NCBI GenBank assembly: GCA_013360915.1
Contig: JABWAT010000001.1
Coordinates: forward strand, 379,259 to 443,258
Direction: 5' to 3'
From: Bacteroidota bacterium
GTDB taxonomy: Bacteria; Bacteroidota; JABWAT01
DNA: 64,000 nt
Made by a program: the position numbers and the translations under genes. The notes under the pieces were generated by a model that was not told the origin of the DNA, did not search any database, and was given only the letters and a program-made list of their open reading frames with translations. This document shows positions 4,423-11,167 of the stretch, piece after piece; within the stretch, counting starts at the first letter, position 1, and each line of letters opens with the position of its first letter.

Positions 4423-4839
4423 TTAATCTTCTGGCTTGGCTGAATAATTGATACGAAGTGCATCAGCATCCCGTAAACGTTGCTGGATGTCAGTTACGAT
4501 ACCCATCTTCTGCTCTTTATCCACACGCAACGATACGATTAACTGGGGGATTGCACGCCGTTTTTCAGAGAAAACCGGTACCAGCACGTCCAGGTCGTCC
4601 ACAATGGCATCATCAACCTGAATCTGGTCATTGTTTCCGACGAAGATGTAAGAAACAAACCGTTTTTTATCAATCTTTTCAATGGCCTTTGCATTCGGCA
4701 GAACAAACTGAACCAGAAGGGTGGTATCCCTCAAGGTGGTTGTCACCATGAAAAAGAACAAAAGCATGAAAATGATGTCGGGCATAGAGGCAGTTGGAAT
4801 TTCCTGCTTAACATTGGCAGATTTCTTCTGAAATTTCAT
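4423..4839 (-). CDS. ExbD/TolR family protein (module B, second copy)
   Basis: 138-aa single-pass inner membrane protein: a basic cytoplasmic N-terminus, one TM helix (about 19-37, MPDIIFMLLFFFMVTTTL) and a periplasmic domain. Asp21 is the conserved intramembrane carboxylate that carries protons in ExbD, TolR and MotB. The N-terminus (EIPTASMPD) aligns without gaps to that of the ExbD immediately upstream (EIPSASMAD), so the two are tandem paralogs. AAGGAG lies 5 nt before ATG 4839. Expected role: with the ExbB-like channel, to convert ion flow into movement of a periplasmic partner, probably the TonB-domain protein next door. Confidence 0.93.
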   Translation of the reverse strand: MKFQKKSANVKQEIPTASMPDIIFMLLFFFMVTTTLRDTTLLVQFVLPNAKAIEKIDKKRFVSYIFVGNNDQIQVDDAIVDDLDVLVPVFSEKRRAIPQLIVSLRVDKEQKMGIVTDIQQRLRDADALRINYSAKPED

Positions 4840-4848
4840 ACTGTCTCC

Positions 4849-5391
4849 TTATTTAACCCGCTCTGGTTCAGCAAAGGAAATCTTTTTGCCATATATGGCA
4901 GTAATCTGTTTTTTCTGATCATCACCAAGCTTTTCAAATGTGGTCCCGAATTTGGACCGTGCCTCTGCATCTCTGATTTCAGAGTAAGCGATGTTCAGCT
5001 CGTCATATACATCCATGAAGATGTTATAACTGGTTTCACGATCCACTTTTACAGAAATGAGAGCTTTATCGGGTCCTTCAGAAAAGTTTGGATCCGCTCC
5101 CCGGTTGGTGATATGCTTTTTGGCAATCTCACGAATCTGGGCGATAGAGGATTCCTCATTATTAACCAGCACCTGTCCTGCACTGTTCACCAGAATATTC
5201 ATGATATTCCGGGCTTTAACAGGAGGGGGTGGTTCATCCGTTGGAGGAGGCGGAAGCACCAATCCGATACCGGTATCAACGTCAATGGTGGTGGTCACCA
5301 TGAAGAAGATCAGCAGTAGGAAGGCGATATCAGCCATGGATGCGGATGGAATTTCCGGATCTGGCTTTTTTTTGCGTTTGATGTGTGGCAT
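4849..5391 (-). CDS. ExbD/TolR family protein (module B, first copy)
   Basis: 180-aa ExbD-like protein with basic N-terminus (KRKKK), a TM segment at about 19-37 ([18 protein letters not shown]) with conserved Asp21, a Pro-rich hinge just outside the membrane ([11 protein letters not shown]) and a periplasmic domain longer than usual. It lies between the ExbB-like gene and the second ExbD with gaps of 9-21 nt, so an operon is likely. The 40-residue C-terminal extension (KFGTTFEKL to PERVK) is absent from the neighbour and suggests different partners. Confidence 0.93.
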
Positions 5392-5412
5392 ACTGGTTAC
5401 CTGATGGTAAGA

Positions 5413-6105
5413 TTATTTACCGGAAACCTTTTTACCGCGCTGAATCATGACCAGGGAGTCAATGAGTTCGATGGAAGATTCTTCCATATCGATCACAATC
5501 CGGTCGATCTTGGATACAAAGTAGTTATAAAACACCTGAAGGATCATAGCCACAACCAGACCAAACAAGGTGGTCAAAAGAGCGACAGCAATACCACCAG
5601 CCACAACGTCAGGAGAAATGTCTTTTGCCGCCTTGATAGCATCAAATGCATCAACCATCCCTTGTACCGTTCCGGTAAACCCGAGCATCGGAGCAAGTGA
5701 AATCATGGTCGAAATCACAATCAGTCCTCTTTCAAGGAAACTCATCTCGATCTGGCCATAGGCAACGATTGCTTTTTCAGCGGCATCAATACCCTCTTCG
5801 GCGCGCAGGAGACCAGCCTGAAACACAGCGGCGATCGGACCACGGGTGTTGGCACATTTCTCTTCGGCAGCCTTGATTCCCCCTTCATCCAAAGCCTGTT
5901 TAACTTCAACAAGGAATTTTCTTGTGTTGATGGATGCACGGTTCAGCGTCCACAGCTTGGCAATGGCAACGGATAATCCAATGATGAGACATACAAGAAT
6001 AGGCCACATGAACAACCCACCTTCATTGAATTTTTGAATGATCCAATTCAGGTCGTAGGTAGGAGTTTGGGTGAGGTCCTGCAACAGAAGAAGGGAGAAT
6101 AGCAT
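5413..6105 (-). CDS. MotA/TolQ/ExbB proton channel family protein (module B)
   Basis: 230-aa inner membrane protein with the three TM helices of the family: TM1 about 31-52, TM2 about 128-152 with LGFTGTVQGMV, TM3 about 168-195 with GGIAVALLTTLFGL. The Thr/Gly-rich TM2 and TM3 form the proton path with the ExbD TM Asp. AAGGAA lies upstream of ATG 6105. It is the first gene of a four-gene run (ExbB, ExbD, ExbD, TonB), and the 217-nt gap before it has a promoter-like site at 6155-6185. Confidence 0.94.
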   Translation of the reverse strand: MLFSLLLLQDLTQTPTYDLNWIIQKFNEGGLFMWPILVCLIIGLSVAIAKLWTLNRASINTRKFLVEVKQALDEGGIKAAEEKCANTRGPIAAVFQAGLLRAEEGIDAAEKAIVAYGQIEMSFLERGLIVISTMISLAPMLGFTGTVQGMVDAFDAIKAAKDISPDVVAGGIAVALLTTLFGLVVAMILQVFYNYFVSKIDRIVIDMEESSIELIDSLVMIQRGKKVSGK

Positions 6106-8176: not shown

Positions 8177-9283
8177 TTAATCTGCGAATACGTACGGTAT
8201 GTTCAGAACCTGAGGTTGTTTATCCGTTACCGTGCTGAACTGCCACAGACGAACCTTGTTGAGAATACAACGTTCAACATTGGCATTCTTCATGGTACTG
8301 GAAGCAATCCGGGGACCTACCACGCGACCGTCCGGTGAAATCCGTAATTCCACCACAATCTGTCCGCGAAGACTCGGATCTTTAACCTTTTCCTGTTCGT
8401 AGCAGGCCGTGATAGCACGTGAATGCTCATCAATCACACTGGTCAACTCATCCACTCCACGCGAGGAGGAACCAGATGATTTGATTTTTCCGGTGGAGAG
8501 ACTTGATTTGATGTTACCGCTGCGACCAAGAGCATCACCAACACCGGTTCCGGCTCCCAATCCGCGGGCAGCACCAACTGCACCCAGTTTTGCACCGACT
8601 GCTCCGCCACGTCCCACGTCTTCACGGGTAGCATTTCCAAAGCCCATGCCTTGCTGTCCGGCACCAGACTTCAGAATGGCCCCAAGGTCACCTGTACTGG
8701 TAGCAGAACTCAACACATCGGTAGCAGTTCCGGCTGAGGAAGCACGACCCGTACGGGACCGGCCGGCAAGGGCAGCAATCGCGGCACTTGCCTGTGCAGC
8801 AACATTGGCCTGGTACTGAGCCTTTGCAGCAGCAGCTGCTTCCGCACGTTGTTGTTTAAACTCTTCTGAAGTGGCTTCTTCGCGGGTTTTACCCTTGGTG
8901 GTCGCCTTTTCAGCAGCAGCCTCTTTCTTTTCTTCGGCCGCAACAACATTGTCGGTTTTGATTTCTTCCTTAGGGGTATCCAATTCAAGAGCAGCAGAAC
9001 GTTTCAGAATTTTTTGCATGAATGCCTGCTTGATCATTTCATTCACTGCAGATTGATCTGGAGGCTCGTAAGTAAGTAACATGGTAAACATGGCACCGTA
9101 AACAACCCCGAAGGTCGCTAACAGGATTCCTGCATACCTTTTGTCAATCCCTTCCCAGAATGTTTGTTTAAATTCATCCGGAAATGCGCGGCTTTGTGCA
9201 GCCATTACAGCTGTTGCCTTCGGATTAACCGCCTGCATTACTTCATTTGGTTGTGTCTGATCACCGCTTTTATGGTTTTTCAT
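8177..9283 (-). CDS. AgmX/PglI C-terminal domain protein (TonB-like linker of module A)
   Basis: 368 aa. Cytoplasmic N-terminus, single TM helix at about 51-71, then a charged Ala/Lys-rich stretch (about 95-165, probable coiled coil), a Gly/Ser-rich flexible region (about 175-275) and a C-terminal domain at 277-368. That domain (HSRAITACYEQ, GQIVVELRISPDGRV, CILNKVRLWQF, Cys294 and Cys339) matches the AgmX/PglI C-terminal domain, a TonB-like fold known from Myxococcus gliding proteins GltJ and GltG. It overlaps the preceding ExbD by one base (TGATG) and has GGAGGG upstream. Expected to be the rod that carries force from the TolQ/TolR-like motor across the periplasm. The lack of FHA or zinc-ribbon domains separates it from Myxococcus GltJ itself. 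Confidence 0.85.
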   Translation of the reverse strand: MKNHKSGDQTQPNEVMQAVNPKATAVMAAQSRAFPDEFKQTFWEGIDKRYAGILLATFGVVYGAMFTMLLTYEPPDQSAVNEMIKQAFMQKILKRSAALELDTPKEEIKTDNVVAAEEKKEAAAEKATTKGKTREEATSEEFKQQRAEAAAAAKAQYQANVAAQASAAIAALAGRSRTGRASSAGTATDVLSSATSTGDLGAILKSGAGQQGMGFGNATREDVGRGGAVGAKLGAVGAARGLGAGTGVGDALGRSGNIKSSLSTGKIKSSGSSSRGVDELTSVIDEHSRAITACYEQEKVKDPSLRGQIVVELRISPDGRVVGPRIASSTMKNANVERCILNKVRLWQFSTVTDKQPQVLNIPYVFAD

Positions 9284-9786
9284 CAGTTACCCTCCACAGT
9301 TATCAGCTTAATTTTGGTAAATCCTGCCTGCGAGGCAGTATACACAACCTTTATGAACGAGGTATAATCGAGACCTTTGTCACCCTGTATCAGGATTTCT
9401 CCAGTAAACAGGGGCTCACCATCCGGGCCATCACCTAAGTCAATTAATTCCTGTGCACGTGCATCAAGAATATCAAACAACTTTTTGATCATAAACCCAG
9501 TTTCAGGATCGACAGGCCCCAAATACTCTTCCGGAGCGGAAACATAGTCGTCATTGAATAGGAGACCGAGCTTAGAGACAGCAATAGTAGCTGTTTTTTT
9601 CGGTTTGTCCAGGTTAATGGATTCCGGCAAACGCAAACCCTCTGCTTCAGTAACCAGTGCACCTTCGGCAGAAAACTGGTTCAGCAGAAACAGAAGAATA
9701 ATTGTCATCGCATCCATAAGCGAGGTCAGAGAGACCCCACCTGAACTAAATCTGTGTTTTTTTCCCTTACTGGGTGCAAATGCCAT
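9283..9786 (-). CDS. ExbD/TolR family protein with conserved TM Asp (module A)
   Basis: 167-aa single-pass protein. The N-terminus MAFAPSKGKK is basic; the TM segment about 20-38 (LTSLMDAMTIILLFLLNQF) contains Asp25, the expected proton carrier. The periplasmic domain contains GEILIQGDKGLDYTSFIKVVYTA, the ExbD pattern in which a short strand (ILIQGD) precedes a helix. AGGAGA upstream of ATG 9786. The tandem neighbour at 9799-10389 shares the MAFxPSxxKK start but has Asn at the Asp25 position, so the two probably form an asymmetric pair. Confidence 0.92.
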   Translation of the reverse strand: MAFAPSKGKKHRFSSGGVSLTSLMDAMTIILLFLLNQFSAEGALVTEAEGLRLPESINLDKPKKTATIAVSKLGLLFNDDYVSAPEEYLGPVDPETGFMIKKLFDILDARAQELIDLGDGPDGEPLFTGEILIQGDKGLDYTSFIKVVYTASQAGFTKIKLITVEGN

Positions 9787-9798
9787 TGATCAGCTCTC

Positions 9799-10389
9799 CT
9801 AATTAATGTTTACACCCAAGGAGATGCTGGGAAATAAAACCAGCTCAATCTCTTTGCTTTGTTCATTGTATTTGGCTTTAACCGCATCCATGGTCTTGAT
9901 CAATACCTGATAAGGGATGGTGTTGGCAGCCGTAATCTGAATATTGAACTCATCTGCAAACTGGCCTTCGCCAATTTCTTTCTTCAGATCAGTCAGTTTG
10001 TTATTCAGTGCGGCGAGAGGCCAGTGTTTTTTAACATCCTGACCATCATAGACATCATATTCGCCCGGAGTTACCGGAATTGTAGCTGAATTGTTGGGAT
10101 CGGGTCCCTTTTCGATTCCGCGAATATTAGTCTGAATGGTATAACCATCATCCGTAACCAGTAGCTTCAGATCAAGCTTTTTCTGCTGCTCGGTGGGAGT
10201 GTTGGTTGCTCCCCCTCCCCCGCCACCCGAATCGGTTGGCAGGTTGATTTCGATTGTGCCAAGTTTAACGAACTCGGCACAGGACAGGAGCAATGGAATC
10301 AGACATACCATGAGGTTCATCACCACAATCATATCCGGTTCCTTGAACTCGTTATCCTGTTTTTTTCGTTGTGAAGGCTTAAATGCCAT
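9799..10389 (-). CDS. ExbD/TolR-like protein with Asn in place of the TM Asp (module A)
   Basis: 196 aa. N-terminus MAFKPSQRKK aligns gap-free with the downstream ExbD. The TM helix (about 20-37, MIVVMNLMVCLIPLLLS) has Asn25 exactly where the partner has Asp25; Asp19 is at the membrane edge and not an equivalent. A Gly-rich hinge (SGGGGGATN) follows, then a periplasmic domain ending FNIQITAANTIPYQVLIKTMDAV, the ExbD fold signature. Loss of the carboxylate suggests a structural subunit that does not itself carry protons, as inferred from known ExbD/TolR/MotB mechanisms. AAGAGG before ATG 10389. Confidence 0.85.
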   Translation of the reverse strand: MAFKPSQRKKQDNEFKEPDMIVVMNLMVCLIPLLLSCAEFVKLGTIEINLPTDSGGGGGGATNTPTEQQKKLDLKLLVTDDGYTIQTNIRGIEKGPDPNNSATIPVTPGEYDVYDGQDVKKHWPLAALNNKLTDLKKEIGEGQFADEFNIQITAANTIPYQVLIKTMDAVKAKYNEQSKEIELVLFPSISLGVNIN

Positions 10390-10453: not shown

Positions 10454-11167
10454 TTAGTTAATTACGGGTTTGTAGCCAGTCAGAAGGTTAATCAGTTTTA
10501 CAGTGTGCTCATCAATCTCATCAATGATGGATTGGGTCTTCGCCTGAATAAGAACCACAAGTACGGTTAACGGGATTGCAGAGAAAAGACCCATCATCGT
10601 GGTACCCATGGCGGCCGAGATACCCTGAGCAAGATACTGTGATTTCTGAGCAGCCGGAATGGCCGTTCCACCCACAGCACCGAAAGCGATAATCAGACCA
10701 AAGATCGTACCGGCCAGACCGAGAAGAGTTGAAGCCGAAGCGATCATGACCAGATAACCGGTCCGGTTGGTCAGGCGGGGAATCACTTCAAGGGTTGCTT
10801 CATCAACTGCATTCTGAATGTCACGGAATTCCTTCGAGGTATCTGCGCGTTTCAGACCACGGAGGACGATGTAAGGAAGGGCCTTTTCCTTGGATTGCTC
10901 GGCAAGGGCAATGGCTTCCTTAATGTTGTTCGATTGAACATGCTGGCGGATGCGCTCCATGAATTTTCCAGCATTGATATTTGACCGGACATACACATAG
11001 TAGAAACGTTCAATGACGATTGCCATACCGATAACCATGAAGGTCAGAATGACCCACTGGAACCATGCAGAGGGGTCACCTGCCACAGCATTTCCGTTGG
11101 AATCAATGTGATCCCAGAATTTGAAGGAGTTAATAAAGGTATTAAGGAACAAGTCCAAAGCGTTCAT
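10454..11167 (-). CDS. MotA/TolQ/ExbB proton channel family protein (module A)
   Basis: 237 aa with TM1 about 36-57, TM2 about 138-162 (LLGLAGTIFGLIIAF) and TM3 about 182-207 (GISAAMGTTMMGLFSAIPLTVL); the Gly/Thr signatures of TolQ and ExbB are intact. The cytoplasmic loop between TM1 and TM2 holds the expected helical region. CGGAGA precedes ATG 11167. It is followed by two ExbD genes and an AgmX-like gene and preceded by three genes for exported proteins, so it is the motor stator of module A. It is clearly diverged from the 230-aa paralog of module B. Confidence 0.94.
   Translation of the reverse strand: MNALDLFLNTFINSFKFWDHIDSNGNAVAGDPSAWFQWVILTFMVIGMAIVIERFYYVYVRSNINAGKFMERIRQHVQSNNIKEAIALAEQSKEKALPYIVLRGLKRADTSKEFRDIQNAVDEATLEVIPRLTNRTGYLVMIASASTLLGLAGTIFGLIIAFGAVGGTAIPAAQKSQYLAQGISAAMGTTMMGLFSAIPLTVLVVLIQAKTQSIIDEIDEHTVKLINLLTGYKPVIN

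Follow-up and report, generated by a model that had tools for sequence, protein, structure and literature searches.

The Agl-Glt gliding and spore-coat motor of Myxococcus xanthus consists of AglR, AglQ and AglS; their genes, one TolQ-like and two of the ExbD/TolR type, lie in this order. Outside the Deltaproteobacteria, aglR-Q-S forms one locus with the core set gltD-E-G-C (Luciano et al., 2011, PMC3169522). In the AglQ D28N mutant of M. xanthus, proton conductance is reported to be abolished, the gliding machinery paralysed and sporulation lost (PMC3858216). Since this change alone abolishes function, one Asp is insufficient in the Myxococcus background. Whether AglQ and AglS form a heterodimer is treated as open in a 2022 review (PMC9389320). 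The E. coli TolQ-TolR and ExbB-ExbD systems, which belong to the same families, have a single ExbD/TolR gene, and their axle is a homodimer carrying two Asp residues. TolR Asp23 engages the Thr ring of the wheel, and a simulated water chain to Asp23 starts at TolQ Glu173 (PMC12583513). In the structures of TolQR and MotAB the two Asp residues are found in different environments, and their alternate use has been proposed (PMC12215075, PMC12583513).

The minus strand of the 64,000-nt stretch of DNA analysed here (the window) carries a locus, module A, with AglR-like, AglQ-like and AglS-like genes in the Myxococcus order and with nearby genes for a GltG/AgmX-type transducer and TPR partners, a further likeness to that system (PMC3169522). 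The genes follow one another in the order TPR protein, 1780-aa protein, small protein, ExbB, ExbD-Asn, ExbD-Asp and GltG-like transducer (Table 1), a make-up resembling the core set of Luciano et al. (2011, PMC3169522). The second exbD gene and the transducer gene overlap, the end of the former with the start of the latter. The transducer passes a profile cut-off with its AgmX/PglI C-terminal domain only; it misses the GltG equivalog cut-off (NF033760, 101.5 bits vs 650). ORFs of similar size to the small protein occupy its place upstream of exbB in Gammaproteobacteria and Calditrichota loci. Module A shares with the E. coli systems the Thr ring and the periplasmic fold of the Asp copy, and differs from them in having two ExbD genes and in lacking TolQ Glu173. 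Module B, in the same window, is likewise an ExbB-ExbD-ExbD module; the gene between the two is, judging by its sequence, an aspartyl-tRNA synthetase.

Table 1. Features of module A, and the position of module B, in the 64,000-nt window.
Feature	Position	Strand	Remarks
GltG-like force transducer, AgmX/PglI C-terminal domain	8177..9283	-	NF033768, 81 bits, cut-off 40
Second ExbD/TolR protein, 167 aa	9283..9786	-	Asp25 present; AglS positional ortholog
First ExbD/TolR protein, 196 aa	9799..10389	-	Asn25 at the proton-carrying Asp site; Pro32 at +7; AglQ positional ortholog
Asn25 codon AAC	10315..10317	-	Single transition away from an Asp codon
ExbB/TolQ/AglR-like wheel subunit	10454..11167	-	Thr ring (TolQ T145/T178) present; Ala at the TolQ-E173 position
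Small secreted-looking protein, 108 aa	11258..11584	-	Directly upstream of exbB; also in family relatives
Large repeat-like periplasmic protein, 1780 aa	11581..16923	-	Probably belongs to the Glt-type gene set, by analogy (PMC3169522)
TPR protein, 819 aa	16930..19389	-	Probably belongs to the Glt-type gene set
Module B (ExbB-ExbD-ExbD)	4423..6105		Asp21 in both ExbD copies

Both ExbD/TolR proteins of module A pass the Pfam ExbD/TolR profile (PF02472; 39.1 and 42.3 bits, cut-off 25.4). The membrane helix of the first copy reads ...EPDMIVVMN25LMVCLIPLLL and that of the second ...GVSLTSLMD25AMTIILLFLL, so that the proton-carrying Asp typical of ExbD/TolR proteins is present in the second copy only. 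This asymmetry had been proposed in a sequence-only reading and is borne out, with both genes intact, as is the presence of Asp21 in both copies of module B. The accompanying statement that the two proteins align without gaps up to residue 25 holds for this species but not for its family relatives, in which the Asp is at residue 26. Asn is identical in the first copies of 4/4 genomes of the family; in G001-G003, which belong to it, all first copies have Asn and all second copies have Asp. The dN/dS of the Asn-copy gene is ~0.05, indicating strong purifying selection. Sequencing error is excluded by the conservation of Asn in four genomes, and a frameshift or pseudogene by the open frames and the low dN/dS. 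Chance is likewise excluded, because Asn is fixed in the family, dN/dS is low and the residue recurs across phyla. A search of 391 further genomes of the phylum did not recover module A. The genome studied here has a third ExbB-ExbD-ExbD module at another site, which is likewise Asp/Asp.

AlphaFold2 models of the two copies have the same layout, with a single membrane helix (residues 20-39 and 20-40) that includes residue 25, followed by an ExbD-type periplasmic domain. The model of the Asp copy matches the ExbD/TolR structures 8vgc, 8pek and 5by4 at E<1e-3 (E ~2e-4); in the fold search with the Asn copy the best ExbD match was weak (E=0.11). A sequence search found no AglRQS-like entry among solved structures.

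We surveyed 255 adjacent ExbB-ExbD-ExbD pairs of the AglRQS-type family, 228 of them distinct by their helix regions. Of these, 107 were fetched from named genomes with a DNA pattern that describes only the second-copy (Asp) helix and are therefore an unbiased sample for the first copy. A profile of the first copy fetched 144 pairs from Myxococcota, Gammaproteobacteria, Geobacterales and Calditrichota; these were not preselected for the second copy, which carries Asp in 140 of them. Further divergent loci were fetched in addition; the survey excludes pairs located at the edge of a contig. The states of first and second copy were Asn/Asp in 158 pairs, Asp/Asp in 81, Gly/Asp in nine and Ser/Asp in three, with the reverse asymmetry in four (Asp/Ala in three and Asp/Gly in one). 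Asn thus accounts for 158 of the 170 pairs with a non-Asp first copy. The premise of the sequence-only reading, that both subunits normally have the Asp, is wrong for this family, in which one Asp per pair is commoner; outside certain lineages the orthologs carry Asn (or Gly or Ser) at the site. By record titles, Asn/Asp pairs span about eleven named phyla, several of them represented by single MAGs that could be misassigned. They include Pseudomonadota, Thermodesulfobacteriota, Myxococcota, Calditrichota, Fibrobacterota, Cloacimonadota, Fermentibacterota, Latescibacterota, Gemmatimonadota and Nitrospirota.

No pair among the 255 lacked Asp in both copies. About 2.7 such pairs would be expected if the copies were independent, a figure resting on few independent events, and taken alone the lack of double losses is not significant. 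That Asp is lost in either copy yet never in both fits one shared axle. The pairs with the reverse asymmetry (L267, L270, L276 and L279, all Myxococcota) form one clade. The Gly-bearing first copies of Fibrobacter (L045, L086, L107, L116, L118 and L120) are enlarged to ~298 aa. In a Polyangiaceae MAG the Asn/Asp ExbD pair is duplicated in tandem (L100, 2264-4936). Many Calditrichota genomes (for example G991, G960 and G954) have two such modules, the first ExbD being longer (~180 aa) in one and shorter (~155 aa) in the other.

A tree of ExbD proteins is divided by a branch (support 99*) that separates all second copies from all first copies. The first-copy side has weak support of its own (48), and the Myxococcaceae Asp28 copies fall within it. 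M. xanthus was represented by Pyxidicoccus as a stand-in, the first copy of which has Asp at residue 28, matching AglQ Asp28. By position, the Asn copy is orthologous to Myxococcus AglQ, a correspondence overlooked in the sequence-only reading, and the Asp copy to AglS, the two copies lying in the matching clades; module B is distant from module A. We also built a three-protein tree with the trait residues masked, in which Asn first copies make up 137 of the 189 thinned rows. There, five independent contrasts set first-copy Asp apart from non-Asp, in surroundings that are mostly Asn. Asp/Asp pairs thus appear about five separate times in this tree, most of which is Asn; its root is not secure, for which reason gain and loss are unsettled at deeper levels. 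The clearest Asp group, the Geobacterales, is nested in an Asn clade. Asn and Asp codons are one transition apart (AAY/GAY).

We infer a heterodimeric axle and a single-site mechanism, and consider it likely that module A encodes an AglRQS-type 5:1:1 motor in which the heterodimer is obligate and one carboxylate carries the protons. Five AglR-like wheel subunits would surround an axle of one AglQ-like and one AglS-like ExbD subunit. In most of the AglRQS-type family, module A included, the proton-carrying Asp resides only on the AglS-like subunit, the AglQ-like one having Asn, or sometimes Gly or Ser. The single carboxylate would serve the five Thr sites in turn, perhaps with one 72-degree step per proton, as opposed to alternating 36-degree steps with two carboxylates. 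The Asn subunit would be the structural half of the axle and may hydrogen-bond to the Thr ring. Force would be taken up by the GltG-like transducer and by the TPR proteins, with a putative role at the outer membrane, and module A may act in motility or in the envelope. Two observations count against a single-site heterodimer. The residue found naturally in module A is the same one that disables the Myxococcus model motor, AglQ D28N being inactive (PMC3858216), and an orphan Asn-type ExbD gene occurs with no ExbB or second ExbD nearby (L291, 1517-2119).

The two ExbD proteins could instead form separate homodimers on the same wheel, with Asp/Asp as the working motor and Asn/Asn in an idle, regulatory or anchoring role. 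All solved relatives have homodimeric axles, and the question of AglQ/AglS dimerization was left open in PMC9389320. Nevertheless, we regard this arrangement as unlikely. The two ExbD genes adjoin in all scored loci, and if the first copy were idle, repeated changes between Asn and Asp, at some five places in the tree, would not be expected. Moreover, Asn/Asn axles would be dead and yet are under strong selection. A heterodimer with one proton site is the simplest account. The four Myxococcota loci in which the second copy has lost Asp and the first has kept it are also hard to explain with homodimers and favour a heterodimer.

A further question is whether another carboxylate acts in the Asn subunit, at -6 (Asp19 in module A), at -8 or near the periplasmic end of the helix (Glu39). 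At -6 an acid is indeed present in 49% of Asn copies as against 2% of Asp first copies, but about half of the Asn copies do without it. The -8 acid is common not only in Asn copies but also in Asp first copies (76%), and an acid at +14 is found in only 11%. Between -5 and +13 relative to the site, 137/137 thinned Asn copies have no acid, so a replacement within the helix is excluded. Both conditions under which the sequence-only reading would have failed, Asp at the site in orthologs and a neighbouring carboxylate taking over, thus speak for it. In the wheel, the Glu of TolQ-173 is mostly missing from N/D motors (3/150), which have mainly Val, Thr or Ala at this position. Overall, we think it improbable that a different carboxylate takes over. 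It is more improbable still that Asn is a mechanistically meaningless, tolerated degeneration of a redundant copy: Gly (in Fibrobacter) and Ser do occur at the site, but Asn prevails among the non-Asp states, the helix around it shows conservation (128/137 Asn copies have Pro at +7), dN/dS is low and the Asn state is spread over about eleven phyla.

The Thr ring of the wheel (T145/T178) is invariant in 150/150 N/D sequences. In D/D motors the TolQ-173 position is Glu or Lys in 71/78, and Pro at +7 is nearly always absent from Asp first copies. The Myxococcaceae follow this pattern: both copies have Asp, TolQ-173 is mostly Glu or Lys and Pro at +7 is missing, whereas module A combines Asn/Asp with Ala and Pro at these positions. 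The AglR of many Asp/Asp motors in Myxococcota (L164-L192) has Lys, and so a positive charge, at the TolQ-E173 position, where TolQ and ExbB have Glu. Three Myxococcota loci (L293, L269 and L285) combine a first-copy Asp with Pro at +7 and Ile at TolQ-173, and look like an Asn-type motor after a recent Asn-to-Asp change. Module B is Asp/Asp with Val at TolQ-173, so Glu at this position is not needed in all motors. Coupling of Asp to Glu or Lys at TolQ-173 ran in one direction in two to three independent contrasts (p 0.25), and coupling to the loss of Pro in three to four (p 0.125), in neither case with a reversal; with so few contrasts, neither is significant. We also put forward a wider proposal, which we consider almost as likely as not. 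Here, 5:1:1 single-carboxylate motors with a heterodimeric axle, five protons per turn and 72-degree steps would be widespread and Asn/Asp their common state. The two-Asp forms of Myxococcus and Geobacter would have arisen later as reversions, linked to a changed wheel (Glu/Lys at TolQ-173) and a changed helix (Pro at +7 lost).

No match to the Asn copy was found in a plasmid search, and there was no confirmed relative in viral contigs, where the pattern matches had in-frame stops. Among open-licence papers we found no earlier notice of the Asn/Asp asymmetry. The asymmetry is old and common across many bacterial phyla and is not peculiar to this genome, and the Myxococcus model system is atypical of its own motor family at the Asp site. 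Models of MotAB and TolQR presuppose a homodimeric axle whose two proton sites alternate. If the single-site heterodimer is correct, a large natural one-site family would demonstrate that a single carboxylate is sufficient to power a motor of this kind. The Asn/Asp pair would then be a built-in asymmetric label for the counting of steps and protons, and the stoichiometry of AglQ and AglS would become directly testable.
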